Shown piece after piece: positions 2,795 through 24,795 of a stretch of DNA of 24,795 bases. Where the stretch lies: IMG/VR virus record IMGVR_UViG_3300020424_000026, positions 1 through 24,795 of that record; one strand, written 5' to 3'. Made by a program: the position numbers and the translations under genes. Position 1 is the first letter of the stretch; each line of letters opens with the position of its first letter. The notes beneath the pieces were generated by a model that saw nothing but the letters and a program-made list of their open reading frames with translations, ran no database searches and was not told where the DNA came from. Source of the stretch: a virus.

Positions 2795-3418
2795 CTAATC
2801 TACCTCTGAATCCCTATTAATCAAATTTAAATTAAAAGAAACTGAGATTCTATCCTCATCTGATTTATTTTCTAATACTTTATGTTCTAAATGTGCTGGA
2901 AATAACATTAAACCTCCCTCAACAGCTTCATAAGAATAATCAAAATGATAAGCATGATCATCCCTAAATTTTCTTGAATAACAAATCATTTCATTATAAC
3001 ACATATAATTATATGGAGATATGAACATTAACTTACCAGAATTTTTTGGTATTTTTATCCATAAAACTCCTGCAATATCACAATTAGGATGGCAATGTTT
3101 TACATTTAAAGAATTTGGTGGATTTATATTGACCCAAGTATGACATCTAACATCGACACCACTTTTAAATGATGGTATGTTTGATATAACATCAATAAGA
3201 AGGTCTTGAAGAACATCCCCACCTTTAACCTTAAATACCAAAGATTGAAACCCTCCACGATTAGATGCTGTTCTACCTCTTTCTGCATTATCCCTTAAAT
3301 TATATGCGTAATCAATTAGTGCTTGCTTCTTTGTATCAAAATCATTAATTTTTAGACAATGAATTGGTGTAGGAAATAAATTATGAACATTATAATCTAT
3401 ATTTAAAATCTCGTTCAT
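2795..3418 (-). CDS. 2OG-Fe(II) oxygenase
   Basis: 207 residues from ATG at 3418. A GTG start at 3427 is possible, but the ATG overlaps the upstream stop as TAATG, which fits coupling. The protein matches the putative 2OG-Fe(II) oxygenase family common in marine phages: metal motif HCHP (His108, His110) followed by DIAGVLWIKIP, then GKLMF and a distal block FPAHLEHKV...N with His179, and RISVSFNL with Arg190 as the likely 2-oxoglutarate contact. These residues build the iron site in a double-stranded beta-helix. The substrate is unknown; protein, lipid or nucleotide hydroxylation are all possible. It is the last gene of the coupled operon starting at 5476. Confidence 0.8.
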   Translation of the reverse strand: MNEILNIDYNVHNLFPTPIHCLKINDFDTKKQALIDYAYNLRDNAERGRTASNRGGFQSLVFKVKGGDVLQDLLIDVISNIPSFKSGVDVRCHTWVNINPPNSLNVKHCHPNCDIAGVLWIKIPKNSGKLMFISPYNYMCYNEMICYSRKFRDDHAYHFDYSYEAVEGGLMLFPAHLEHKVLENKSDEDRISVSFNLNLINRDSEVD

Positions 3419-3600
3419 TATTTCCACTCTGGTACGTCAGGATAATTTTTTTTAATATAATCATTTACTTTATTAAGACTATCTTCCATCCAATCTTCCC
3501 ATATAACTACACCATGAGGTGCATGTTTCATACCTTTATACATTCTTTTTGTATATAAAATTCCCCTTAATAACACAATCTCGTTACGATTGATATTCAT
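3418..3600 (-). CDS. Small hypothetical protein within the oxygenase operon
   Basis: 60 residues from ATG at 3600 (a TTG at 3609 would add three). I do not recognise it. It is basic at the N-terminus (RGILYTKRMYKGMKH), has a tryptophan pair (VVIWEDW) and ends PDVPEWK. No metal motif or membrane segment is seen. It overlaps the upstream oxygenase by 17 nt, and its TAA overlaps the next ATG (TAATG), so it is clearly part of the same translational unit. It could be a partner of one of the flanking oxygenases, but only position suggests this. Confidence 0.6.
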   Translation of the reverse strand: MNINRNEIVLLRGILYTKRMYKGMKHAPHGVVIWEDWMEDSLNKVNDYIKKNYPDVPEWK

Positions 3601-4078
3601 TTTCGACAACGGTATTTAATTCTACATCTATCATAACAAATTTCATAGGTTTTGTCGAGAGATTATATCCCTCGTGTGTTACATCCATGACAGGAAATGT
3701 TTTATGTTTACCCTCTTCCCACATTATTTTTTTATCTTTCCATATCATAAAACAATGAAAACTATGAGGTATTTCTAGAGGGACTTGTATTCTTTTGTAT
3801 TTTTTAGGATAAACGTCAGGATCTCGATGAGGATTTAATATTGTTCCACCATCAAAAATTGAATATGAAGCGTATATAATTTCACTTTTAGAAAAAATTT
3901 CAAAAATATCATCACTCATCAACTTTTTACGAATCAAAACTTTTTTACCAGCTCCCTTTAACCAACATAAATGTATATCTTTATTAGAATATTCTCCTGC
4001 GGTAGGAACCTTTTTTAGGGGAAATTCTGTTTCCTTAGCCCAATCATATATCTTTTTAATATCTAGATGAGTAATCAT
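3584..4078 (-). CDS. Aspartyl/asparaginyl beta-hydroxylase-like oxygenase
   Basis: 164 residues. The fold is suggested by the first metal motif H84-R-D86 in LNPHRDPD, then RIQVPLEIP (Arg96, typical of the aspartyl/asparaginyl hydroxylase family), and a distal His135 in THEGYNLS before a final strand KFVMIDVE. The family usually has an Arg before the last strand to bind 2-oxoglutarate; here the position appears to be Lys146, a possible deviation. It probably hydroxylates a protein side chain or a small molecule. Start ATG 4078 overlaps the upstream stop as ATGA. It is the middle of three neighbouring oxygenase-like genes. Confidence 0.7.
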   Translation of the reverse strand: MITHLDIKKIYDWAKETEFPLKKVPTAGEYSNKDIHLCWLKGAGKKVLIRKKLMSDDIFEIFSKSEIIYASYSIFDGGTILNPHRDPDVYPKKYKRIQVPLEIPHSFHCFMIWKDKKIMWEEGKHKTFPVMDVTHEGYNLSTKPMKFVMIDVELNTVVENEYQS

Positions 4079-4665
4079 ATTATATTATTTGATAATTTAT
4101 CAACAGCTTCATCCCACAATAGTCTTTTACCATATAAATCAAATACAGCTAATGTTATTACAAATCTTTTTTCATTTGTAGGATTATGAGGACTATGTAA
4201 TTTTCCCACATTTACTAGATGAGGAAGTCTCAAGTCTTTCTCGTAAATAATCTCAGCATCCTCTTCTTTAGATACTAAAATATCTACTGCGTGAGAAGAA
4301 TAATCTGTTTTACCTTCATCAGATCCGATAGTCGTGCTTACCCGTAATGTTTTTTTTGAATCCCACCATCTTAAAGTGCTTCCTTCAGCACCAAATTGAA
4401 AATATATTTTTGTGTATTGAGTATAATCTGTATTATCACAATGTATTATTCCATCCGACTTAGGAGGTGCGTAAAACAACTCTATCCATTTACAAGATAA
4501 ACCAAGTGATTCTAGATATTCAAATAAGTGATTATTATTTAATTCACTTGGTGAGGGTGTTTTATGAAATGTAGACCAATCATATCCATCAGTATTATAT
4601 TTTGAAAAATCTAGTTTAGGATATAATTCTGGTGTAAAATTTAATTCTCTGCAATAATTATTCAT
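4075..4665 (-). CDS. Probable cupin/2OG-Fe(II) oxygenase-fold protein
   Basis: 196 residues. A candidate iron site is H75-C-D77 in IIHCDNTDYTQYTKIYFQFG, a distal His157 or His160 in GKLHSPHNP, and Arg167 in RFVITLAVF. This H-x-D...H...R order is that of the 2OG oxygenase double-stranded beta-helix, but the match is looser than in its neighbours, so another cupin-type hydroxylase is possible. ATGA overlaps join it on both sides (4662-4665 and 4075-4078). No signal peptide or membrane segment is seen. Substrate unknown. Confidence 0.55.
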   Translation of the reverse strand: MNNYCRELNFTPELYPKLDFSKYNTDGYDWSTFHKTPSPSELNNNHLFEYLESLGLSCKWIELFYAPPKSDGIIHCDNTDYTQYTKIYFQFGAEGSTLRWWDSKKTLRVSTTIGSDEGKTDYSSHAVDILVSKEEDAEIIYEKDLRLPHLVNVGKLHSPHNPTNEKRFVITLAVFDLYGKRLLWDEAVDKLSNNII

Positions 4666-8615: not shown

Positions 8616-8623
8616 TATTTATG
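8616..8623 (-). promoter_or_regulatory. T4-type late promoter motif before the 680-residue fiber
   Basis: CATAAATA on the minus strand differs at one position from the T4 late consensus TATAAATA. It overlaps the stop of the giant fiber gene and predicts a start about 10 nt before ATG 8599. Reasonable by position, but the short AT-rich motif could be chance. Confidence 0.45.
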
Positions 8624-11600
8624 AACCCTCAAGTGCAGTAACTTTTGCAGAAAGTTCCTTGACAGCCTCTATGAGGACAGGTATTAATTTTTCATAACGA
8701 ACTGCCTTTATACCATTTGCCCTTGTTGTTGTTAGACCAACTAAACCAAGTGCTTCAACCTCTTGTGCGATTACACCTAGATCTTGTATGCTACCTGAAT
8801 CAGTTATCGTACCATCAATACCATTTTTCCAAGTAAATGTATTTCCACTTATCGCATTTATCTTATCAATTGCGTTAGTTATTGGAGTAATATTTTCTTT
8901 GAGTGTAATGTCAGATGCGTTAAACGCAACTATGTCATTTCCTGCATGGATTTTACCTTCAACCCCTAGTCCACCCTCCACAACTAGAGCACCTGTATCT
9001 TTACTTGTAGAAGGTGTGGTGGCACTAATAACAACTTTATTATTTGTAGATGTTAATTTTAAATCACCAGTGGTTGTATCTATTGTTGTACCATCTACAT
9101 TTCCAATTCTAACACCATCAACAACTAATTCACCTATTACTTTTAATTGATTATTACTTGCGAAAGAACCTGATGTGGTGAAGGTAAAATTACTTGTAGT
9201 AGATGTTGTATCTGTTGCTGTGTTAAATGGAACATGATTTGCACCACCAACAACGTTTGTTGCTAATGTTGTAGTATCTGCGTTACCAATTAAACTTCCA
9301 GCAAAGTTTACAGAGGATAAAGTATTAGTTGCAAAATTAAATGTAAGATCACTATCAGTCTTCGCAGCAGTCATTGTGCCACTTGTGATATCTGTCAAAA
9401 CCACTCTTTCAGTGCCAGAGCTTGCTGTTGTTAAATTTGCTCCTGTATTTGTTAGTCCAGCACCATCACCATAATATGCTGTTGCAGTGATTGATCCAAT
9501 TCCAAGAATATCAGGGACTCCAGAGAATCCAGTATTACTACCAATTAGATCTCCACCAATATAAACACTCTTCGCAATACCTACACCACCTTCAACAGTT
9601 ACAGCACCTGTAGTTGTACTTGTAGCATTTTCTGTGTCCTTAAAGTTAGCGTCTCTGGCTCTTATTTCTGGTTCAATTGTAATTTGTTTCTGGTCGTTAG
9701 ATAATCTAACATCGCTATTAAATGTAACTGGACCATCAAATTGAGATAATATCTGTTTCGATGAACCACCTTCAACTAAGAGTCTTTCTTTAACAATAAC
9801 TTCATCAGCGACTAAACTCAATCTGTTTGGATCTTCACCTGTAACCGTTGGTACGGGAATATCAAATGTTTTTTGCTGTCCACTGGCAGATTCTATCTTG
9901 GTATTTCCAATATAAAAATCACCTTTGTCATTCATTCCAGTGTAAACTACATTACCGCAAGATGTTTCCTGTGCTTGATTAAGGAACTCTTCCCTCTCAG
10001 TAAGTGATCTATTCTGTAGCTGTGGTAGGGCAGTTGAATAGTTACCTGGACCAAAACCAACATATTCAAATGTATGTCCTGATGATCTCAATATTGAAGG
10101 TCTACGAAGTTCAATTGGTAGAGGTTTAACTTTTTTAATTAATGAATTGATAGGGTGTATTAATGTATTAGTTCCAAGTGAACCACGAACAACTGTTATT
10201 TCATCACCACCTCCACCACTCAAACTATTGGAAGCAATACGCATTATTTCACTTCCAATCTGAATATACGAACCAAGTGGGAAACGATTTATTATTGATG
10301 TTGCAGTGGTAGACCCGTCAGGAAGTTTAACTTTAAATGCAACGTCTCCTGTATTAATCGCTTCATTTAGAATAAGTGTTTCATGGTCGAATATATTAAA
10401 TCCTCTTACATCTAAATTCTCACCAGCAGCTCCAGAAATTGCCTCATTATCAGATAATCCGTGTTTTAATATGTACTTTGGATCTACTAAGTCATTTGTC
10501 GTCTTAGCAGAGAATTGAGTTATACCAACGACTGATGTTACAACAAAATCTCCTAAGTTTACATCAGTGCTATTAAGAACTCTAAATTTATTACCAACAG
10601 ATAACCCATGATCTACAGGAGTTGTAAATTGTGTGACTCCAGACGTTGTTGATGCTGATCCAACTGCAACCCAAGGACCCATATCATGAATCTGTTGACC
10701 GTCAAGTAATGTATCAGTGGCAGATTTGGAAACTGTGATTTGTCTTGTGCTATTAACACTTGATATACGATGATAGGAATCAGTACCAGTTGTAATACCA
10801 GTAACTTGAATATAATTACCAGTTACTGATGATATACCAGCAGTCGCAATCGTAACATTCGCACTAGGACTACCACCTATACCACCAGTCGCTACAGAAG
10901 AACTGTCAAGGAATAATGTTTCGCCATTTGTATATCCAGAACCACCCTCAGTGATTTCAACTGATGTAACAGCTCCACTCGCAACAGTAACTTTTGCAGT
11001 TGCACCATCCCAAGTCGCAGTCGATGGTGCTGCATTTGAATTGAATAGTTTTATATTATGATAAGTTCCGTCAGTGTGACCTGATCCACCACTTAATGTA
11101 CTGATATATTTTAAAGATTGTAACCCATGTTCTTCATCAAGATTTATGACAGCGTTTGTATTATTATTAGTTACTGAAGTAATGCCAATAGAACCATCAA
11201 CATTCTTCAAAAATTGGTTGATTGTTTCTCTTGTTACACTTTTCTTTAAATCATTTGTGATAACGTCACCAATTGGAAAACGTTTTGCGTGTGATACAGC
11301 AGCAGGTGGGTTTGCATCGACATTATCTCTATCATATTCTGGGAATAAGTTAACAATATTCTGATTATATTTTAATTCAGAAAATTCATTCGATGGTTCA
11401 TCCATCGCATTATTACCATTCAAGACAAATAAGTGGAATACACCATCTTGAACTCCTTCAATATATGGTGTAACGACTTCAGTTCTGTATATAAAGAAGT
11501 TACCACTATTATTATTTCGATCAAATCTTGGTAATAATGTAGAACGTGTATGAGTTGTATTTGTAAAGTCACCAGTTGTATGAGTTATACCAGATGTATC

Positions 11601-14345
11601 AGTGGGTGAGTATTTAAACTCTTTATCATTTGTAATTTCAGATACAATGAAAGTTCCATTAAAACCTTTGTCATCTATTCCAGAAGTATTAAATGTACTC
11701 TGTACATTTTTTACGATTATTTGATCTCCAACACCTAAATTGTGAGGTTTATCAGAACGTATTTCTACTAATTGTAGTGTTGAATCAAAGTTGGCTTGTG
11801 ATATGAACCTTGTATTACGATCAAAAGCATAATCACTTGATGTTATTGATGTTTTACTAAAATCGCTATCTGCTATTACAGTTGTTGAACTTGAATCTTG
11901 AAGAACAAATCCATCTACAGGATCTCTTCCGTTTTGTAATTCTTTTGGAACAACATATCTTAACTTATAAATTTTCTCATCTAAACTTCTATCATCATCT
12001 TTCCTAAGAACATATGTAATGTCATCGGTGCTTAATGATGCAAGATTTGATTGTATTGTATTGTCAGTAGAACTTGTATGAACGAACCATTGATTTGCAC
12101 TTGTATCATATTGAATAGGGTGTCCTGCATCATTTGGTTTTTTATCTGATACTCTACTAATAACTCTAAACTTATCTGATGTATTAGCTACGGATTTTAC
12201 AAAAACAGGAACGGCCAATTCAGCGTTTGTTTTAGATGAAGCAATACGTATCTCTGTCGCTGATAGAGATGTATCTTGAGTGCTTGTTATTGCAAAGTAA
12301 ACTGTATGTGGATCAACATTTTCAGGTAAGTCACCATTATCAGCGATAATTCTAATTGATTCTCCATTTGCTAATTCGTGTCCTGCTTCAATTTTAAATA
12401 CAGATTTATTAGCTGCACTTGCATCTGAATGTAACGCTTCATAATTCTTTTCTCCAACATTTGATGTGCCTGTAGCACCATTTGGCATGACTACTGTTGC
12501 TGAATATGTGTTGCCAACTTTATCTATGTACAGTTTTTCATTAAAATTAGCACCAATTCTGAAACCCTGTGCTATGTGTGTAGGTGGTGTACTTAAATCA
12601 GTTTGTGCGAATAAGAATAACTTTGTAGTGGTTGTATTACTAGGATTAATCTGTAAAAATTCAATCTGCTGTTCTTCGTTTACAACCGAACGAGGAGTAA
12701 TTACAGATGTAATAAATCCTTTATTATCTTTATCAAATGCCTCTTTTTTAAATCCTTCAGCAAGAAGTGAGAAACTACCAAAGTTTGAGTTTGAGTTTGT
12801 GATAGATGCGTCTGCTCCATTTATCATCTCAAAGTGAGCGTGGAATCCAATCGCAAACACTGACACAATTTGAACCACTGCGTCATTTGACACTTTTATA
12901 TGTGTTGTTCTAAAATCCTTACGATAATTTGCTTCTTGGTCTAAATGAAATACTGTGCTAGGGTTAGTGGATGATGATTCAGAAGATAGTAATGCACCTG
13001 TCTGTTTGGAAAATGCAATACCACTGTATCTCCTATTTGTTTTATCATATTTGACGAACGCTCTGTCATCTTTCTGTAGGGATACTGCAGTAAACTGTGC
13101 AGTCACCATTGATCTAAAACCAGTCGCTTTTGAACCGTCAGCGTGTAAACCCTGCATACCATATACAGAACGCATTGATACGTTAAAGATATATGGTGAT
13201 GCACCCGTGACTGTATCAGTCTCGACTAATACCTGTCCATTCGCTGCACTTAATCCTCCAGCAGACCCCGCTGGTAAATTTGGTCTAACAAATGGTAATG
13301 AATATCTAAATCTAGTTGCATCAATAACACTTGATACTTTTGTTGAAATATTATAATCCGCTACGTTTATGCCACGAATTTTTATTGGTGTCCCAGCTGA
13401 TAAGTTATGATTTAGCGTAGTTTTTACAGTTACAACTTGACCTGGTGTTGCCCCATCTCCTGACTCAATACTAGATATTTTAAGTGGGTCAGTTGCAAAG
13501 GCACCAACAATTTCAAATTCTGGTCTTTGAGGTGCAAATGCTCTTGGTGAAGCGGGGTATTTTTGATCTATTTCTCGGTTTGTAGCCTGATTAAATGCAT
13601 TAGTTAACTTACTATAATATATGTCTAAGTCTGTTAAGTCGCTAAAATTATCAAGTTTATTAACACCATCAGCATATTCAAAGGCAGTTAATTTATGATG
13701 AGAAAATGTTGGTTTTGATTGATTATTAATACTAAAATCTGATGGGTCAGTATATACTAAACCTCCTTCACTTCCATCAAAAAATGTAAACTGCCAAAAA
13801 TAGCAAGCACCTGTTATTCTGAATAATGCTGTTTTTGGTGCGTTAGTGTCAGTTGGATTTGGAACATATAGTGGTCTAATTTTTGTCTTTCTTAAATCTA
13901 ATCCAACTATTGATGTACCTCTTGGAACAACAACACCACCGTGAACACTATTGAATTTGTATAGAATATTGTCTTCAGATGTTAAATCAAAATTGGAATT
14001 TAAAGTAAGTGTTAAAGTACTAATCGCTCCACTAGTTGCACCTGATGGACTTACTGCTCTAGCAGCGGTACCTGCAGATCTTATACCAAAACCTGGTCTA
14101 TTATCAACTACATGATCGCCTGGAAAAAGTAATATTGTTGTTCTTTCTACTAAATCATTATCATTTCCCTTTAAATACGAAAATCTAGCAGCCTCTATTA
14201 GTGCTCTTTGGATTGTTTTAAAAGGTTTGGTTAATGAATTACCTTTATTTTCAATACCATCGGTAGAATCAAGGTCATTTGGATTAACATAAAGAACACG
14301 ACCATCAGTATTCTTTATAAAATTCTCTAACTTATTAAGAGGCAT
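8619..14345 (-). CDS. Giant tail fiber with S74 C-terminal self-cleaving chaperone
   Basis: 1908 residues, the largest gene here. The N-terminus (RVLYVNPNDLDSTDG, then PFKTIQRALIEAARFS and LLFPGDHVV) resembles the start of right-handed beta-helix structural proteins in marine T4-like phages. The middle repeats beta-rich modules (for example VTTPVDHGLSVGNKFRV-like and GGSGYTNGE-like). The last 98 residues are a peptidase S74 intramolecular chaperone: Ser1811-Asp1812 and Lys1816 in SDITLKENI, then LGVIAQEVE and the helix YEKLIPVLIEAVKEL. In this family the domain trimerises and folds the fiber, then cuts itself off before the Ser, here between 1810 and 1811. Likely a long structural/side fiber. 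A late motif sits upstream. Confidence 0.88.
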   Translation of the reverse strand: MPLNKLENFIKNTDGRVLYVNPNDLDSTDGIENKGNSLTKPFKTIQRALIEAARFSYLKGNDNDLVERTTILLFPGDHVVDNRPGFGIRSAGTAARAVSPSGATSGAISTLTLTLNSNFDLTSEDNILYKFNSVHGGVVVPRGTSIVGLDLRKTKIRPLYVPNPTDTNAPKTALFRITGACYFWQFTFFDGSEGGLVYTDPSDFSINNQSKPTFSHHKLTAFEYADGVNKLDNFSDLTDLDIYYSKLTNAFNQATNREIDQKYPASPRAFAPQRPEFEIVGAFATDPLKISSIESGDGATPGQVVTVKTTLNHNLSAGTPIKIRGINVADYNISTKVSSVIDATRFRYSLPFVRPNLPAGSAGGLSAANGQVLVETDTVTGASPYIFNVSMRSVYGMQGLHADGSKATGFRSMVTAQFTAVSLQKDDRAFVKYDKTNRRYSGIAFSKQTGALLSSESSSTNPSTVFHLDQEANYRKDFRTTHIKVSNDAVVQIVSVFAIGFHAHFEMINGADASITNSNSNFGSFSLLAEGFKKEAFDKDNKGFITSVITPRSVVNEEQQIEFLQINPSNTTTTKLFLFAQTDLSTPPTHIAQGFRIGANFNEKLYIDKVGNTYSATVVMPNGATGTSNVGEKNYEALHSDASAANKSVFKIEAGHELANGESIRIIADNGDLPENVDPHTVYFAITSTQDTSLSATEIRIASSKTNAELAVPVFVKSVANTSDKFRVISRVSDKKPNDAGHPIQYDTSANQWFVHTSSTDNTIQSNLASLSTDDITYVLRKDDDRSLDEKIYKLRYVVPKELQNGRDPVDGFVLQDSSSTTVIADSDFSKTSITSSDYAFDRNTRFISQANFDSTLQLVEIRSDKPHNLGVGDQIIVKNVQSTFNTSGIDDKGFNGTFIVSEITNDKEFKYSPTDTSGITHTTGDFTNTTHTRSTLLPRFDRNNNSGNFFIYRTEVVTPYIEGVQDGVFHLFVLNGNNAMDEPSNEFSELKYNQNIVNLFPEYDRDNVDANPPAAVSHAKRFPIGDVITNDLKKSVTRETINQFLKNVDGSIGITSVTNNNTNAVINLDEEHGLQSLKYISTLSGGSGHTDGTYHNIKLFNSNAAPSTATWDGATAKVTVASGAVTSVEITEGGSGYTNGETLFLDSSSVATGGIGGSPSANVTIATAGISSVTGNYIQVTGITTGTDSYHRISSVNSTRQITVSKSATDTLLDGQQIHDMGPWVAVGSASTTSGVTQFTTPVDHGLSVGNKFRVLNSTDVNLGDFVVTSVVGITQFSAKTTNDLVDPKYILKHGLSDNEAISGAAGENLDVRGFNIFDHETLILNEAINTGDVAFKVKLPDGSTTATSIINRFPLGSYIQIGSEIMRIASNSLSGGGGDEITVVRGSLGTNTLIHPINSLIKKVKPLPIELRRPSILRSSGHTFEYVGFGPGNYSTALPQLQNRSLTEREEFLNQAQETSCGNVVYTGMNDKGDFYIGNTKIESASGQQKTFDIPVPTVTGEDPNRLSLVADEVIVKERLLVEGGSSKQILSQFDGPVTFNSDVRLSNDQKQITIEPEIRARDANFKDTENATSTTTGAVTVEGGVGIAKSVYIGGDLIGSNTGFSGVPDILGIGSITATAYYGDGAGLTNTGANLTTASSGTERVVLTDITSGTMTAAKTDSDLTFNFATNTLSSVNFAGSLIGNADTTTLATNVVGGANHVPFNTATDTTSTTSNFTFTTSGSFASNNQLKVIGELVVDGVRIGNVDGTTIDTTTGDLKLTSTNNKVVISATTPSTSKDTGALVVEGGLGVEGKIHAGNDIVAFNASDITLKENITPITNAIDKINAISGNTFTWKNGIDGTITDSGSIQDLGVIAQEVEALGLVGLTTTRANGIKAVRYEKLIPVLIEAVKELSAKVTALEGS

Positions 14346-18396: not shown

Positions 18397-19733
18397 TTCC
18401 TTCCGTAAGTATCTCTTAATAATTTTAATCTAGTGAACGAACCCTCTACATCATAATAGTGAGACATCTCTTTAATCATATATAGACCACTTGAATCAGG
18501 ATCTGGAACGTGTCTTTTTTCTAAATCGTTGCGGGGAAATTCACATCTAATGACAGTGCCCGCAGATAAATTTGTATTGAGAGGTACAACAATCTCTGCA
18601 ACCTGAGTATGTAATAAACTATATCTCATTCTTGATTGTGCGTCAATCATCACTGGATCAGCATTTCTTTGAATGGGGTCATTCCAACCTTTCTTACTCG
18701 CATTTTCCTCTAATGTGCCAATATCATACATTGCACTGAATATACGAGTTGGTGCATTTCCTAAAGATTCAGCATCCTCTATTTCTGACATAGGTGCAGA
18801 TGGAAATTCTATTTTATTTTCACCTAAAGTTTTAATATTGTTAACATAATCTGATGACTTAAAATGGTTGATATAAGGAGCAAATGAAAGGGGATTAATA
18901 TAATATCTTTGACTACTATATGCACCTCTTTCTAGTTTATTCATCAAATCAATATTTTGATTTATGTTGTATTCTATAATTTTAAAATCTTTATTTGGAT
19001 CATTAAAATTTACTACATTTGGTGCATACCTATAATCTTTTTCAAAAGGATTTTGCTCTACTAAAGAGTCAATGGATCTAAAATTAAATCCATCTTTTGT
19101 TTGATAGAAAAAGAAACCAGCACTACTACCTTTTGATTCCTCCTCGGATTCACCAGACATAGATCTACTTGCTAACCAAGTTAATATTTGAAATGGTTTT
19201 TTCATATTTCCAATGAACCCATAATTATTCATTGTAGTCTCTATTTCATTTATTTTATCAGTTTTAATATAATTTTTTAAAATATCTTTTACAGCGGCAG
19301 AAATATTAGTCTCTGGGGTAAATTTTTTACCAACCCGTGCAGTCTCATTCGTAATTGCCTCTCTACTTACTAAATTTAAAACTAGACTCTCACGCTCTCC
19401 ATCTATCATCACATTTTCTATACCGCTAACGTAAAAATTTTTCGTGGGTTCTGAAAAATCTAGTGTTTGATTAGTGACTGAATTAGCAGCTATTTTTATC
19501 GATACTCTCTCACCACCTCTTAGTGGTAAACCATTATAAAGAGATTGTAATTTACCATCTTTACCACGTACAACTCCACCAGTATTAACTACAACTATTC
19601 TAGCTGTGATAATTGGTGAAAATAAATTTTCATAATATGTGAAGTTAACAACACCCTCTGCTATGTCAACGGTAGTAGAACCGTCTCCTGATTCGATAAT
19701 AAATTCTTCGTATATTGATGATTTTACTGACAT
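18393..19733 (-). CDS. Baseplate hub protein, gp27-like
   Basis: 446 residues (T4 gp27 is 391). Placement between tape-measure genes and gp5, and a beta-rich N-terminal part followed by a mixed region (LTWLASRSM, RYYINPLSFAPYINHF), agree with gp27-type hub proteins, which form the trimeric ring at the tube end. The C-terminus, GLYMIKEMSHYYDVEGSFTRLKLL, resembles the last strands of gp27/gp44-type hubs. I infer gp27 from position and fold pattern rather than a strong motif. Start ATG 19733 overlaps the upstream stop (TAATG); its end overlaps gp5 by ATGA. Confidence 0.65.
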   Translation of the reverse strand: MSVKSSIYEEFIIESGDGSTTVDIAEGVVNFTYYENLFSPIITARIVVVNTGGVVRGKDGKLQSLYNGLPLRGGERVSIKIAANSVTNQTLDFSEPTKNFYVSGIENVMIDGERESLVLNLVSREAITNETARVGKKFTPETNISAAVKDILKNYIKTDKINEIETTMNNYGFIGNMKKPFQILTWLASRSMSGESEEESKGSSAGFFFYQTKDGFNFRSIDSLVEQNPFEKDYRYAPNVVNFNDPNKDFKIIEYNINQNIDLMNKLERGAYSSQRYYINPLSFAPYINHFKSSDYVNNIKTLGENKIEFPSAPMSEIEDAESLGNAPTRIFSAMYDIGTLEENASKKGWNDPIQRNADPVMIDAQSRMRYSLLHTQVAEIVVPLNTNLSAGTVIRCEFPRNDLEKRHVPDPDSSGLYMIKEMSHYYDVEGSFTRLKLLRDTYGRK

Positions 19734-21295
19734 TAGCTATTCAATATGAGAGTCTGAGCTTTTTTGATTGGATCTTTATTGGTATTAAATTCAACTCCAA
19801 TACCTGAACCTCCTCCACCAACAAATGATCCACCATTACCTGTATTAACTGCGACCTCTTGTATAATGACAGTTGTTTTATTAGATTTTTTATTTTTAAC
19901 AAGATTCTGTTCATTTTTGGAGATAGGAACAATCAATCCCATATCATCTTTTCTTCCTGGAATGCTTATATTTACATTTGTTTGAATATCTCTGGTATTA
20001 ACACCAAATTTATCATTGAGAAGTATACTAAGTGATTTAAATCTAAAGTTTTCTTTTGCTGTTCTATTTAAATCTTTTTCTTTAAGTTTTAAAAAATTTG
20101 ATATTGCTTCTTCTTTAGTAAGTGCATCAACTCCTGTACCCTTTATCAATTTCAATGCACCCTGATCACCTCTATACACTACGGTTTCTCTTCTTTTTTT
20201 AGTGCCAGTAGTATTATTATTTTTTTTGTTTGTAGTTTGATTTCTCTTACTTACATCTCCAATGGTATTTTTTAATTTATTAGTCTGATTTTTTACTTCA
20301 TTATCAACGTCTTTTTCCGACACTACATCCTTTTCTTTTTGATTATTGACTAATTTGACACCATCATCAATTATTTTATCTGCCTGTCCCACTATTATAT
20401 CATCTTCAGTCTCCTCTTGGTCTATTGGTGTCTCGACAACATTTTCATTTTCATTATCACTATCATTAACAGGCACTGTTATTATGTTATCATCTTGTCT
20501 TACCTCACCATCTAAAGTTGCATCACCTACGTCACCCACACCTTCTTCTACTTCCGCTCCACTCTCCTTTGCCTCCTGTAATCCATCTTTATATGCCTTA
20601 TCAATTTCCTCACCATAGGTCATTTCTAAATTATTTTTATTGACATCACTTCTTAACACTTCATTATCAACACTTTTTTCAAACCCTTCAACTGCTTCTT
20701 GAAATTCAGTATTAAGTAAAAGTAAAGCGTTTACTGCCTTTTCATTCTCATCTTCCTGTTCTGCTTTTGCTTTTAAAAAATCAAATTTTGGTAAGGAATC
20801 CATAGCTTCTCTTATTCCTTGTCCCAATGAAGTGAAAAAATCACCAACTCCCTCTACGAAATTAGTTAAAATATTAGTTAATTGTTGAATTCTTTTTATA
20901 AGTGATGATATAGCATTTAATATTACTGGTAAAGAATTTATAAACCATCCTACTAAAATTATACCAAAGAAATCTAATATTCTCCCTAAAAATCCTTTTG
21001 TGCTTCTTTGAACTATATTACCTTGTTTTGTTTCTACACCTTTTATTGATGTTGATTCTAGTTCATCCTCTCTTTGTTTTCTCCTTACATTTTCTCTTCT
21101 CTTATTAAAATACTGATCATCCTTTCTTATCAATTTAGAAGTGAAAATATTTGTTTTGCGAGTTTGTTCTATAATTCCACTCGCAAGCAAACTTGTTCTA
21201 CCCAAACCTTTTGAAAAATTTGATACAGAATTACGTATAGAATTAATACTATTTGATGAACTTATTAAAGAATTACGTTGTTTTTGTATTGACAT
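19733..21295 (-). CDS. Second tape-measure-like protein
   Basis: 520 residues. Helical N-terminus with basic residues (RRENVRRKQRED near 67-78), then one hydrophobic stretch at about 102-133 with the motif LxRxxDxFxxxxxGWxxN, also present in the upstream gene. An acidic low-complexity middle follows (about 240-345), then a basic patch (KKRRETVVYRG) and a C-terminus with Gly-rich FVGGGGSGIGVEF. Architecture and place suggest a tape-measure-related tail interior protein, a paralog or partner of the upstream gene. A chaperone or hub-plug role is the alternative. TAATG overlap with both neighbours. Confidence 0.6.
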   Translation of the reverse strand: MSIQKQRNSLISSSNSINSIRNSVSNFSKGLGRTSLLASGIIEQTRKTNIFTSKLIRKDDQYFNKRRENVRRKQREDELESTSIKGVETKQGNIVQRSTKGFLGRILDFFGIILVGWFINSLPVILNAISSLIKRIQQLTNILTNFVEGVGDFFTSLGQGIREAMDSLPKFDFLKAKAEQEDENEKAVNALLLLNTEFQEAVEGFEKSVDNEVLRSDVNKNNLEMTYGEEIDKAYKDGLQEAKESGAEVEEGVGDVGDATLDGEVRQDDNIITVPVNDSDNENENVVETPIDQEETEDDIIVGQADKIIDDGVKLVNNQKEKDVVSEKDVDNEVKNQTNKLKNTIGDVSKRNQTTNKKNNNTTGTKKRRETVVYRGDQGALKLIKGTGVDALTKEEAISNFLKLKEKDLNRTAKENFRFKSLSILLNDKFGVNTRDIQTNVNISIPGRKDDMGLIVPISKNEQNLVKNKKSNKTTVIIQEVAVNTGNGGSFVGGGGSGIGVEFNTNKDPIKKAQTLILNS

Positions 21296-22950
21296 TAGAC
21301 CGTGCTTACATTAAACAAAGATTCTGCGACTATCACGTAATTATTGGCATAATCTGATGTTGAAAATTTAGGCACTTTTACTGCACCTACTTTGCTTGGA
21401 CCTGATGTTCCAGTTTGAGGTGTACTTTTTCCTTGTAATGGTAAGTTTATTACTTCTACATCTTCATTTAAAGCCAATTTCTGATCTAAATTTTCATCTC
21501 TTGTTTTAAATGGCACTATTCCACTAACAGAATCATAAGAAACTGGTCTTGCCATAATATTATCATTATTAGAGGTATTCGTTCCCTCTATATTACCAGA
21601 TGCAGAATTATTATTCATACTAGTATCACCTTCTACATTTTGATTCGCACCTGTTAACGAATCAACACCTCCACCAACGAAATTTGCTGCTGCCTCATCA
21701 CCACCAAATAAACTCACACCGATACCACCTAATAAACCACCGATAAGTGCACCAGGTGGTCCTCCTAAAAAACCACCAATCAATGCACCAGTTTTCATAC
21801 CAGCACCAAATGTTAAGTATTTGGTAACTCCTCTCGTTAGAGATCCTATAAATGCTTGGAAATTACTGTTACCTCTCTTTTTATAATCTGCAAAATCAAA
21901 TACACCCTCTACAACATAAAATAATTTATTAAATGTATTTAAAAGTTTTCCACCGAACTGTCCTAGTCTTGAAAATGCACCTACCTTAGTTGCTTTAGAT
22001 GCAGTAGCAGCAGCCATTTCTTTGGTAACAATTGGTTTACCAAACATATTACGAAATATGTTATTGAATTGTCTAATTTTATTTGGAAAGAACGCTTGTG
22101 TTGCTACGACTCCACCAGTTGCTGCTGCTGATCTCGATAATATTTTACTATCTCTTGTAGCCTGAGCTGCTGCTTTTGGATCTACATTCTTAACATTATC
22201 AACTAAACCGACTATTCCAAGTCGTAACATATTTTTAAATTTATTGAGATTTACTCCAATAAAATTGAATAATAATTCAAATGGTCTTTTTATGAAATTA
22301 GTGGAAACTACTAATAATAGAGTTGCTGTAAATGCTTTTGTTAGTGCGAGTAATTTACCAAATGCGATGGTTGCAGCTAATGTTATACCACCCATTATTA
22401 TCAGACTGCCTACTAATTTATCCTTAAATTTTTTTAATTCTTCCTCATTCCCCTCGGCATTTAATCTTAAGAACGTTAATGTTGTATTAACTAACCAACC
22501 ACCTGCTAAGAATAAAAAAGCATCTGTCAATCTTGATAAAATACCTTGAGCTACTTGCTTAACTCTTCTGACTGGAGTAAGTAATGCAAATTGTATTCTT
22601 TTTTCTAATTCTGATTCTTTACCCTCTCTTAATCCCTGCTCTGCTAATATAGCTTCCCTTCTTTCTTTTGCTGCTTGTCTTTGTCTTTCTAATGCATCAC
22701 TTACTTGTAAATTATTTTTTATTGCCTCTAACGAATTATTAATACTTGAGACTTGTTGAGTTATTCCTGAAAGTTGACCTGAAACACTTTCTAAAGTCAA
22801 TGAATTTTTTGATATTAAATTTTGTGATATTGTATCACCTTGAGCTTGTGGTGGAACAGCACGACCAGTAAAGATACTAGAAGATACGCTTCTTCTAATA
22901 CCTCTTAATCCACCTGCAATCGGTGACGCTAAACCTTGTTCCTCATCCAT
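21295..22950 (-). CDS. Tail tape-measure-like protein
   Basis: 551 residues, similar in length to T4 gp29 (590). Helical N-terminus, a basic helix ALERQRQAAKERREAI (86-101), then hydrophobic segments at about 138-163, 180-200 and 204-218, and a Gly-rich hydrophobic stretch near 385-410 (GALIGGFLGGPPGALIGGLL). Tape measures commonly have helical plus membrane-inserting segments. It is directly downstream of the chaperone pair, the canonical place of the tape measure. Its ATG overlaps the small ORF stop; its TAA overlaps the next ATG. It likely sets tail length and inserts into the host membrane. Confidence 0.65.
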   Translation of the reverse strand: MDEEQGLASPIAGGLRGIRRSVSSSIFTGRAVPPQAQGDTISQNLISKNSLTLESVSGQLSGITQQVSSINNSLEAIKNNLQVSDALERQRQAAKERREAILAEQGLREGKESELEKRIQFALLTPVRRVKQVAQGILSRLTDAFLFLAGGWLVNTTLTFLRLNAEGNEEELKKFKDKLVGSLIIMGGITLAATIAFGKLLALTKAFTATLLLVVSTNFIKRPFELLFNFIGVNLNKFKNMLRLGIVGLVDNVKNVDPKAAAQATRDSKILSRSAAATGGVVATQAFFPNKIRQFNNIFRNMFGKPIVTKEMAAATASKATKVGAFSRLGQFGGKLLNTFNKLFYVVEGVFDFADYKKRGNSNFQAFIGSLTRGVTKYLTFGAGMKTGALIGGFLGGPPGALIGGLLGGIGVSLFGGDEAAANFVGGGVDSLTGANQNVEGDTSMNNNSASGNIEGTNTSNNDNIMARPVSYDSVSGIVPFKTRDENLDQKLALNEDVEVINLPLQGKSTPQTGTSGPSKVGAVKVPKFSTSDYANNYVIVAESLFNVSTV

Positions 22951-23119
22951 TATTTTGTTGTGCTTTTAAATTTTCCTCTTCAACATACTGTTGCAATAGA
23001 GAAACGTAAATTTCTCTTTCCCAAGGTATCATATTCTCAAGTTCAGTTAAACTATATTTATGGTGCTGCATCAAGGCAAAATTTAACTTATAGTATGACA
23101 CAAGATCTTCATGTGCCAT
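22943..23119 (-). CDS. Small hub/tail assembly chaperone ORF, likely expressed by -1 frameshift
   Basis: 58 residues if started at ATG 23119. Sequence SLTELENMIPWEREIYVSLL, then QQYVEEEN, is the conserved core of the short chaperone ORF next to gp26/gp51 in marine T4-like phages. It lies 2 nt after the gp26-like stop, without a Shine-Dalgarno, and its ATG is inside a stable hairpin. Reading the gp26-like gene in the -1 frame after TTTTTTC enters this ORF in phase (R-I-S-M-A-H...), giving a 299-residue fusion of 238 upstream residues, 3 linker residues and these 58. This copies the G/GT arrangement that loads the tape measure in lambda-type phages. Independent translation from ATG cannot be excluded. 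Confidence 0.75.
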   Translation of the reverse strand: MAHEDLVSYYKLNFALMQHHKYSLTELENMIPWEREIYVSLLQQYVEEENLKAQQNNG

Positions 23120-23134
23120 ACTTATGCGAAAAAA
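23092..23134 (-). promoter_or_regulatory. Programmed -1 frameshift signal (slippery heptamer and hairpin)
   Basis: Minus strand: heptamer T TTT TTC (23134-23128) aligned to the gp26-like frame, spacer GCATA (5 nt, 23127-23123), then an 11-bp stem AGTATGGCACA (23122-23112) pairing with TGTGTCATACT (23102-23092), one G-U pair, and a 9-nt loop. The zero-frame stop TAA is at 23124-23122. This is the standard order and spacing for -1 ribosomal frameshifting. Confidence 0.75.
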
Positions 23135-23841
23135 TTCTGCAGCCCCTCAATTTTTATATCACTCTCAACTTTAGTGTTTGGATTGGTGACAGTAACAGTA
23201 TGAGATAATTTAGGCATAGTTTCAAAAAATGTTTCGACTTTTTTGAACTGACTAGAATTTAATGACTCTATAAAAGTTGTTAACTCTTTCTTCGTACATT
23301 CTTCCGAAGCCCAAGATTCCTCCTCTGAATAAACCTGATCTATACAAGATGCGATTAAATCAAAAGTATCATCTACGTTCATCTCCTGCATCGCACTAAA
23401 GTTATTTTTAATAAATTCAGTCAACGAAGGATATTTCATCCTTAAAGTATAAACATCATCTAAAGATATGTCAGTTGAATGGTTTTCATCCTTTTGCACT
23501 TTAATGCTATCAACATTAATGGATGCTGGTACTTGTGTTTTACCATCATCAGGACAAGTAACCATCACTTCAATTTGCTCTCCAACAGATTTTCCACGAA
23601 TGTTTAGAAAAAGATATTCTATATCAAAGGTTGCTAATTTTTCAACCTTTATTCCCTTTGAAAGTATACAATGAGAAATCACATCTTTGACTGCTCTCGC
23701 AATCTGTTTTGTATCTTGAGATTCCATCGCTAAGATAAGAATCTTTTCCTCCTTCACTAGAAACGGTCTATATTTAATTTTCCTGTTTGATGAAGGGAGA
23801 GTCAACTCGTATGTTGGAGTTGATATGGTTGGTAATGGCAT
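23122..23841 (-). CDS. gp26-like baseplate hub assembly protein / tail chaperone
   Basis: 239 residues. The N-terminus (MPLPTISTPTYELTLPSSN, then KIKYRPFLVKEEKILILAME) matches the T4 baseplate family represented by gp26. The middle has EYLFLNIRGKSVG; a helical part follows (FIKNNFSAMQEMNVDDTFDLI, CIDQVY), and the C-terminal end is IKIEGLQNFFA. T4 gp26 and gp51 act as hub assembly factors. Here the gene is immediately upstream of the tape-measure genes and its last codons form a slippery site, so it is probably the unshifted (G-like) chaperone with a longer shifted form. A perfect late promoter lies upstream. Confidence 0.8.
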   Translation of the reverse strand: MPLPTISTPTYELTLPSSNRKIKYRPFLVKEEKILILAMESQDTKQIARAVKDVISHCILSKGIKVEKLATFDIEYLFLNIRGKSVGEQIEVMVTCPDDGKTQVPASINVDSIKVQKDENHSTDISLDDVYTLRMKYPSLTEFIKNNFSAMQEMNVDDTFDLIASCIDQVYSEEESWASEECTKKELTTFIESLNSSQFKKVETFFETMPKLSHTVTVTNPNTKVESDIKIEGLQNFFA

Positions 23842-23887: not shown

Positions 23888-24709
23888 TTATCTTTGGAAA
23901 ACAGGAAAAGGACTTCGACCAAATTGACTGCTATCCACACTACCTGTTACAGTTCCTCCATCTAATCGTCTTTGATATCCAACACTATCATTCAATAAAG
24001 ATACTCCACTCATAACTTCATTTAAAGCACCAGCATCATTATACCTTATATTATTATTACCAGATTTTCTTCTATTATTATTCAAATCAATACCTAACGC
24101 TCTTGCTAATGATGAGGTTTCCCCACAAATATATCTATCAAAACTAAATGACGCTGTTGCTTTTAATACCTGTGAATTTTGATATGAAACCCTAGTTGAG
24201 TTTAAGGCAATTGGAAATAATCCAACAAAGCGATACTCCAAAAATTGAAAATGATCTGCTTCAAATTTTACTATTCTCGTATCATTAGATTTATATTCTT
24301 CGGGATATGCCATTTTAAAATGATACGCATCCCTTGAAGGGTCAGAATTAGATTGTCCTGAAATATATTCCATCCAATGTTCGATAAATTTAAGTGATTT
24401 ATATTCCAAATCAACATAAAAATCAAAACTAATTTGAGTGAACTGTCTTGTATGTGCGAATTTTTCTACTAATCCCTGATAATCTCCAGCAGTATTCACA
24501 GATGCCATATTACTACCTGGTAATACTGCGTCACTACATAAAAGTCCAATATTATCAGAGATAAAACGATCATTTATCCCTTTTTTTCTCATTTCTGATC
24601 TTAATGGGCTATTTGGTAGTACAAATTTTACAAGAAACTTTGATGTCTGAGCTACTCTTTGTAACTTAGGCATTATATCTGATATCCCTCTTGGTCTTGG
24701 TGCTGGCAC
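23888..24709 (-). CDS. Tail-tube-fold baseplate protein (gp48/gp54-like)
   Basis: 273 residues from GTG at 24709; an ATG at 24673 would remove 12 residues, but the RPRGISD segment before it looks like part of the conserved N-terminus, so I prefer GTG. The pattern of tube-type proteins is visible: LCSDAVLPGSNM, VEKFAHTRQFTQISFDFYVD, KFIEHWMEYISG, and a late strand pair FRFVGLFPIALNST-like then VLKATASFSFDRYI. T4 has this fold in gp19 (tube), gp54 (initiator) and gp48 (cap). Length and location next to hub genes favour gp48/gp54; a tube protein is less likely. It is the first minus-strand gene, divergent from gp4. Confidence 0.65.
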   Translation of the reverse strand: MPAPRPRGISDIMPKLQRVAQTSKFLVKFVLPNSPLRSEMRKKGINDRFISDNIGLLCSDAVLPGSNMASVNTAGDYQGLVEKFAHTRQFTQISFDFYVDLEYKSLKFIEHWMEYISGQSNSDPSRDAYHFKMAYPEEYKSNDTRIVKFEADHFQFLEYRFVGLFPIALNSTRVSYQNSQVLKATASFSFDRYICGETSSLARALGIDLNNNRRKSGNNNIRYNDAGALNEVMSGVSLLNDSVGYQRRLDGGTVTGSVDSSQFGRSPFPVFQR

Positions 24710-24717
24710 TCTAAATA
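24710..24717 (+). promoter_or_regulatory. Late promoter motif for the gp4-like gene
   Basis: TCTAAATA on the plus strand, immediately after the start codon of the opposing gene and 22 nt before ATG 24740. Predicted start near 24724, leader about 16 nt. It differs from TATAAATA at one position. Confidence 0.5.
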
Positions 24718-24732
24718 GTTCTATAGTATAGT

Positions 24733-24740
24733 TATTTAGA
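24733..24740 (-). promoter_or_regulatory. Late promoter motif for the gp48/gp54-like gene
   Basis: TCTAAATA on the minus strand, an exact inverted copy of the motif at 24710-24717, overlapping the first base of the gp4-like ATG. Predicted start near 24726, leader about 17 nt before GTG 24709. Confidence 0.5.
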
Positions 24741-24795
24741 TGGCTTATAGGGGAAAATACTATCCATCCTTTCCTAGAAAGTATAAAGGTGATCC
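24740..24795 (+). CDS. 4: gp4-like head completion protein, N-terminus only
   Basis: Only 18 complete codons are in the window (MAYRGKYYPSFPRKYKGD). They closely follow the start of T4 gp4, as I remember it (MAYSGKWVPKNISKYRGD): MAY-GK--P-----KY-GD. T4 gp4 is a head completion protein, also called gp50/gp65 head completion factor in older maps, which finishes the filled head before the tail joins. In many T4-like phages it neighbours baseplate genes. The gene runs out of the window to the right and is the only plus-strand gene seen. Confidence 0.75.
   Translation, partial: MAYRGKYYPSFPRKYKGD

Follow-up and report, generated by a model that had tools for sequence, protein, structure and literature searches.

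Very likely programmed −1 frameshifting to a long tail assembly chaperone in a marine T4-like virus and its relatives

In phages lambda and P2, a tail tube gene precedes the tail assembly chaperone gene and a tape measure gene follows it. In lambda G/GT and P2 E/E', a −1 slip near the end of the short chaperone ORF leads into a C-terminal extension encoded in the −1 frame (Xu, Hendrix & Duda 2004; Christie et al. 2002). A 2016 review describes G-T frameshifting as widely conserved in long-tailed phages 'except T4' (PMC5009743), and chaperone frameshifting at a T-rich site is reported for Vandenendeviridae/Andersonviridae, as in phage Adele (PMC12846349). Tail assembly chaperone genes of T4-like phages were identified by Vladimirov, Gautam & Davidson 2022 (Virology 566:9-15), a study that later papers cite when stating that some T4-like phages have a short and a long copy of the gene (PMC10885494) and that chaperone genes of T4-like phages contain poly-T slippery sites (PMC12846349). 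The −1 slip yielding a longer chaperone is well known among long-tailed phages, and going by these citations its T4-like version is already reported in outline; the initial annotation of the DNA analysed here, which knew of no description of the mechanism in T4-like phages, is superseded on this point. Among the papers searched, which cover Vladimirov et al. 2022 through its citations, none was found that describes the cyanophage frameshift site.

The stretch of DNA under study (the window) comprises the 24,795 bases of an IMG/VR virus record and belongs to a marine T4-like virus. Judged from sequence, it carries a locus from which, in all likelihood, a programmed −1 frameshift yields a single tail assembly chaperone in a short and a long form. 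All structural genes of the window are encoded on the minus strand, in the order tail tube, gp26-like gene, small ORF, two large tape-measure-like ORFs, phrog_350 tail protein and phrog_1922 hub/lysozyme-like protein, which agrees with the earlier placement of the two ORFs upstream of tape-measure-like genes (Table 1). The gp26-like ORF matches PF12322 (T4_baseplate) at 5e-74, with 249 bits against a curated cut-off of 24.5, and phrog_150 at 7e-80. Its position between tail tube and tape-measure-like genes is that of a tail assembly chaperone, as is the presence of predicted short and long forms that would share their N-terminal part. At the curated cut-off, no Pfam family was assigned to the first tape-measure-like ORF; in Caulobacter phage Cr30, an annotated tape measure protein is encoded shortly downstream of the chaperone locus. 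This first ORF and the next one (19733-21295, minus strand) have a short similar stretch in a two-sequence comparison (28% over 80 aa, E 0.001) with GWLVN/GWFIN motifs, and may stem from the splitting or duplication of a tape measure gene. Elsewhere on the minus strand, the window encodes a fibre-like protein of 1908 residues (8619-14345) that ends in a Peptidase_S74 domain (chaperone of endosialidase; PF13884, 8e-12), as well as a cluster (2795-4665) with a 2OG-Fe(II) oxygenase (PF13759, 2e-18) and an aspartyl/asparaginyl hydroxylase-like gene (PF05118, 9e-7). Searches with NCBIfam and PADLOC returned nothing relevant.

Table 1. Features of the predicted chaperone locus and its neighbours in the window.
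Feature	Position	Strand	Remarks
Tail tube gene	23888..24793	-	PF23849 Phage_TTP_2 8e-16; phrog_45 tail tube 1e-33; upstream of gp26-like gene, runs off window
gp26-like gene, predicted short form of tail assembly chaperone, 239 aa	23122..23841	-	PF12322, phrog_150, predicted N-terminal fold
GAGGGG, Shine-Dalgarno-like putative 5' stimulator	23143..23148	-	8 nt (N8) before heptamer
Putative slippery heptamer U UUU UUC	23128..23134	-	In frame of gp26-like ORF; kept in relatives
Putative 3' stimulatory hairpin, 11 bp, one G-U pair	23092..23122	-	5 nt after heptamer; fold z -5.3; covariation
−1 frame extension, 61 aa + stop; predicted C-terminal domain of long form	22943..23128	-	phrog_634 6e-28; aligns with T4 gp51 C-terminus
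ATG-initiated 58-aa ORF	22943..23119	-	ATG 23119 inside stem, no near Shine-Dalgarno
First tape-measure-like ORF	21295..22950	-	ATG overlaps −1 frame end by 8 nt

The dnaX gene of E. coli offers a template for such a junction, with a Shine-Dalgarno-like stretch about 10 nt upstream and a hairpin about 5 nt downstream. These two elements and a slippery heptamer make up the dnaX signal (PMC5009743). At the end of the gp26-like ORF, the heptamer is followed by GCA and the stop codon TAA (23124-23122, minus strand), and five bases (GCATA) separate it from a stem with arms 23122-23112 and 23102-23092 and a loop of 9 nt. Heptamer, spacer and hairpin with its single G-U pair are exactly as given in the initial annotation, to which the Shine-Dalgarno-like stretch (23148-23143) is an addition. 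The 66-nt hairpin region has a predicted stability of -21.9 kcal/mol, as compared to a mean of -9.3 kcal/mol in shuffled sequences and equalled in 0/200 shuffles. As had also been noted, the small ORF continues in the −1 frame through an R-I-S linker: from base 23128 this frame reads CGC ATA AGT ATG (R-I-S-M-A-H) and remains open until TGA at 22945-22943, for a predicted fusion of 238+61=299 aa. Among the 83 in-frame XXXYYYZ heptamers in likely genes of the window, this is the only one that lies within 20 codons of the stop and has a −1 extension of at least 20 aa, which argues against a chance junction.

Most ribosomes would thus terminate at TAA and produce the 239-residue short form. A fraction, with GAGGGG paired to the 16S tail and stalled at the downstream hairpin, would slip one base back on U UUU UUC and read 61 further codons to yield the 299-residue long form. 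If lambda gpG/gpGT is taken as a model, the chaperone may cover the tape measure protein of the adjoining downstream gene, with many copies in the short form and few in the long one. The added domain of the latter may recruit tail tube subunits, and both forms may be absent from the virion.

The initial annotation had staked the frameshift on homologs keeping heptamer and phase, and they do so. Within a close set of 80 IMG/VR loci (67-100% identity), T TTT TTC stands at the same position wherever the gp26 end is present, and the small domain has the same −1 offset wherever it can be scored. Addition of distant groups gave a full set of 210 loci, window included, with groups defined by query: A, close to the window; B, MED4-213-like; C, L166-L199; and D, L093-L114. 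The small domain was found downstream of gp26 in 191 loci, invariably (191/191) in the −1 phase, and an in-frame T TTT TTN is present in 190 of these 191, with C (145), A (25), T (19) or G (1) as last base and a gap of 0 to 6 bases between heptamer and stop. In 190/190, no stop codon interrupts the −1 frame before the domain ends, which gives extensions of 42-67 residues. Isolates with the frameshift signal include P-SSM2, MED4-213, S-H34, S-CRM01, S-CAM1, S-WAM2, ACG-2014b and BUCT-ZZ01, as well as Caulobacter Cr30, Sinorhizobium phiM12, Stenotrophomonas Mendera, Pseudomonas pf16 and Milchi, Rhizobium LG08 and N34, and Vibrio QD01. In T4 relatives a single ORF, gp51, contains both parts, and a decayed or mis-sequenced single gene with an accidental frameshift might look alike; the recurrence of the junction in about 190 contigs and many isolate genomes refutes this explanation, which can practically be dismissed. 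Records of S-CAM1, S-WAM2 and ACG-2014b carry the small domain without an annotated CDS, and elsewhere it is annotated as a separate 'gp51'. The frameshift reading implies that many deposited marine phage genomes misannotate the small ORF or miss it.

Five Ackermannviridae-type loci (L085, L216, L217, L221 and L222) were rejected as T TTT TTN cases. Their site reads (C/G)TT TT(C/T), with the −1 phase kept, and these loci may use a different slip site. No ATG is present at the small domain of L217 and L222.

An alternative to slippage is translational coupling, by which ribosomes stopped at TAA would re-initiate at the ATG two bases on and produce a separate 58-aa gp51. This fits the TAAGTATG spacing and the presence of the ATG in 78/80 close relatives, a feature of the window's own group that was counted against the frameshift reading. 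However, at least 52/190 loci have no in-frame ATG, GTG or TTG in the linker or the first ten domain residues, including L074 and L076 of the close set, and 14 further loci have only GTG or TTG as a possible in-frame start. Conservation of the ATG may moreover be a by-product of the stem, since TCA is used in 69/70 for the Ser codon opposite it. Coupling also fails to account for the lack of variation in the heptamer codons, for the −1 phase, for the hairpin and for the Shine-Dalgarno-like stretch upstream, and is very improbable. Both processes could also operate, with frameshifting producing the long form and a free small domain being made in addition in ATG-bearing lineages: the window's group does keep the ATG, and the annotated internal in-frame start 26' of T4 gene 26 indicates that extra starts occur in this family. 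Nevertheless, as the initial annotation had observed, the ATG has no Shine-Dalgarno sequence in reach and lies within the stem, and a dual arrangement appears rather unlikely. The ATG-started 58-aa ORF is probably not the main product of the small-domain region.

Further evidence for a slip comes from codon usage. Both Phe codons of the heptamer (TTT, TTC) are invariant in 70 non-redundant close relatives, with TTC making up 26% of Phe codons, and the resulting zero synonymous diversity was never matched in random columns of the gp26 body. Elsewhere in gp26, T TTT TTN occurs at 25 of 43,647 codon positions, as compared to 190/190 at the gene end. The Glu codon of the Shine-Dalgarno-like stretch is GAG in 64/70 of the non-redundant close relatives, against a usage of 32%. 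The predicted duplex of this stretch with the 16S tail (anti-Shine-Dalgarno) has a median of -7.9 kcal/mol, a value attained by 1-2% of control windows from the same genes, for which the median is about -0.8 kcal/mol. In group B, GAA is preferred at this codon and 16S pairing is weaker; in the remaining groups, pairing is better than in their own controls to varying degrees.

The hairpin varies more between groups. In group A, 92.3% of cells are paired (64 distinct sequences), and one pair covaries (UA25/GC16/AU15), with both sides changed in 32 sequences. In group C, covariation is apparent at four pairs, with 20% of cells unpaired. The group B hairpin is 92% paired and too conserved for covariation, of which none was seen. 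No stable hairpin and little Shine-Dalgarno-like signal were detected in group D (21 loci, mostly U UUU UUU, some UUC). Covariation is found in two of the four groups, and its lack in group B and the missing hairpin of group D were counted against the frameshift reading; the shuffle controls for hairpins are indicative only, since counts include related sequences. Slippage of RNA polymerase on the T run, rather than of the ribosome, would give access to the −1 frame as well, and would accommodate a run of T6-T8 and the group with T8 and no hairpin. Yet most loci have only six T, interrupted by C, A or G, and the conserved RNA hairpin and Shine-Dalgarno-like element act on ribosomes and not on RNA polymerase, which makes transcriptional slippage highly improbable.

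Structural predictions bear on the nature of the short form. The models of gp26 (pLDDT 88.2) and of a T4-type gp51 (89.6) have a common order of elements, to which gp51 adds a helical C-terminal part. With residues 1-96 of the gp26 model, VIA-align gave 3fgx (Z 7.9), HK97 gp13 2ob9 (7.8) and YqbN 3klu (7.3), followed by rows with Z 5.0 and then 2.6; by the program's own warning, Z below 8 can reflect a common arrangement. The title of 2ob9 is tail assembly chaperone, and 3fgx and 3klu are likewise regarded as tail assembly chaperones (Pell et al. 2013). As the top three rows all belong to this family, a chaperone fold of the gp26 N-terminal domain is suggested with moderate weight, at Z below 8. 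A Foldseek search of the gp26 model against PDB gave no significant match, HK97 gp13 being among the rows of highest probability; a PDB sequence search with the gp26 alignment yielded one chance-level match, and no chaperone was among the VIA-align rows for the T4-type gp51 model. Conserved heptamer and phase, open −1 frame, lost starts and covarying hairpin together make programmed −1 frameshifting very likely in this virus, and with the predicted fold they bear out the analogy to G/GT drawn in the initial annotation.

T4 itself is not a frameshift case, as its genes 26 and 51 are divergent, on opposite strands. T4-like pairs of divergent genes likewise led to the rejection of IME13 and phiAS4, and short and long chaperone genes in tandem to that of Vibrio phage SRILMA, in which both lie on one strand (L215:787-2153), unlike the divergent pair of T4. 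Both T4 proteins match PF12322, and they cover positions 14-235 (gp26) and 13-280 (gp51) of phrog_150. The small ORF, besides its match to phrog_634 ('baseplate hub assembly catalyst'), also matches the end of phrog_150 (positions 239-278 of 282), suggesting that some members of that family comprise both parts in one chain. Indeed, T4-type gp51 aligns colinearly with gp26, past the F-F junction and into the small domain, from end to end, which indicates that the T4 long form comes from a second gene. By alignment, T4 gp26 is the counterpart of the short form, as initially annotated, and T4 gp51 that of the whole frameshift product, not of the small ORF alone as had been assumed. In T4 and its near relatives, gene 26 would thereby supply the short form and gene 51 the long one. 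A comparison of 2010 found cyanophage gp51 to be much shorter than other gp51 proteins, at about 20% of their length, and to lack the first ~200 residues (PMC3037559); this apparent truncation is explained if the missing part comes from gp26 via the slip.

The start of the tape-measure-like ORF raises a further point. Its ATG lies at -5 from the −1 frame stop codon in 67/75 group A loci, and in group B 32/42 loci have the start at +2. The associated Shine-Dalgarno pairing is weak in either group. Given this overlap and weak pairing, mainly slipped ribosomes would reach the tape measure start, and it is tempting to speculate that a single RNA signal sets the ratio of long chaperone, tape measure protein and short chaperone. 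Such a tie of tape measure synthesis to the frameshift is nonetheless doubtful, because the gp26 start is likewise weak in groups A and B.

To the reported outline, the present analysis adds how the signal is built, where it occurs and why cyanophage gp51 appears 'truncated'. The 'except T4' statement (PMC5009743) is thereby qualified, T4 being an exception inside its own wider group and not the rule. Like lambda G/GT and P2 E/E', the locus combines a short ORF, a predicted late −1 slip, a −1 extension, flanking tube and tape measure genes and a predicted chaperone fold. It differs from lambda G/GT in its heptamer, and from both systems in its additional putative Shine-Dalgarno-like and hairpin stimulators and its longer gp26 (239 aa); the likeness is one of layout and predicted fold. 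With E. coli dnaX it has all three signal elements in common at similar spacing; the dnaX heptamer, however, is A AAA AAG rather than U UUU UUC, and in the present locus the slip is predicted to give the longer of the two proteins. In the phage Adele type, too, the −1 frameshift takes place on a T-rich site where the chaperone gene ends, with the motif GTTTTT as compared to T TTT TTN, and the Ackermannviridae-type loci L217 and L221 look closer to this kind of site. With gp26 and gp51 of T4-like phages, finally, the locus shares family PF12322, the long form being predicted to arise from one gene by frameshift here and from a second gene in T4.
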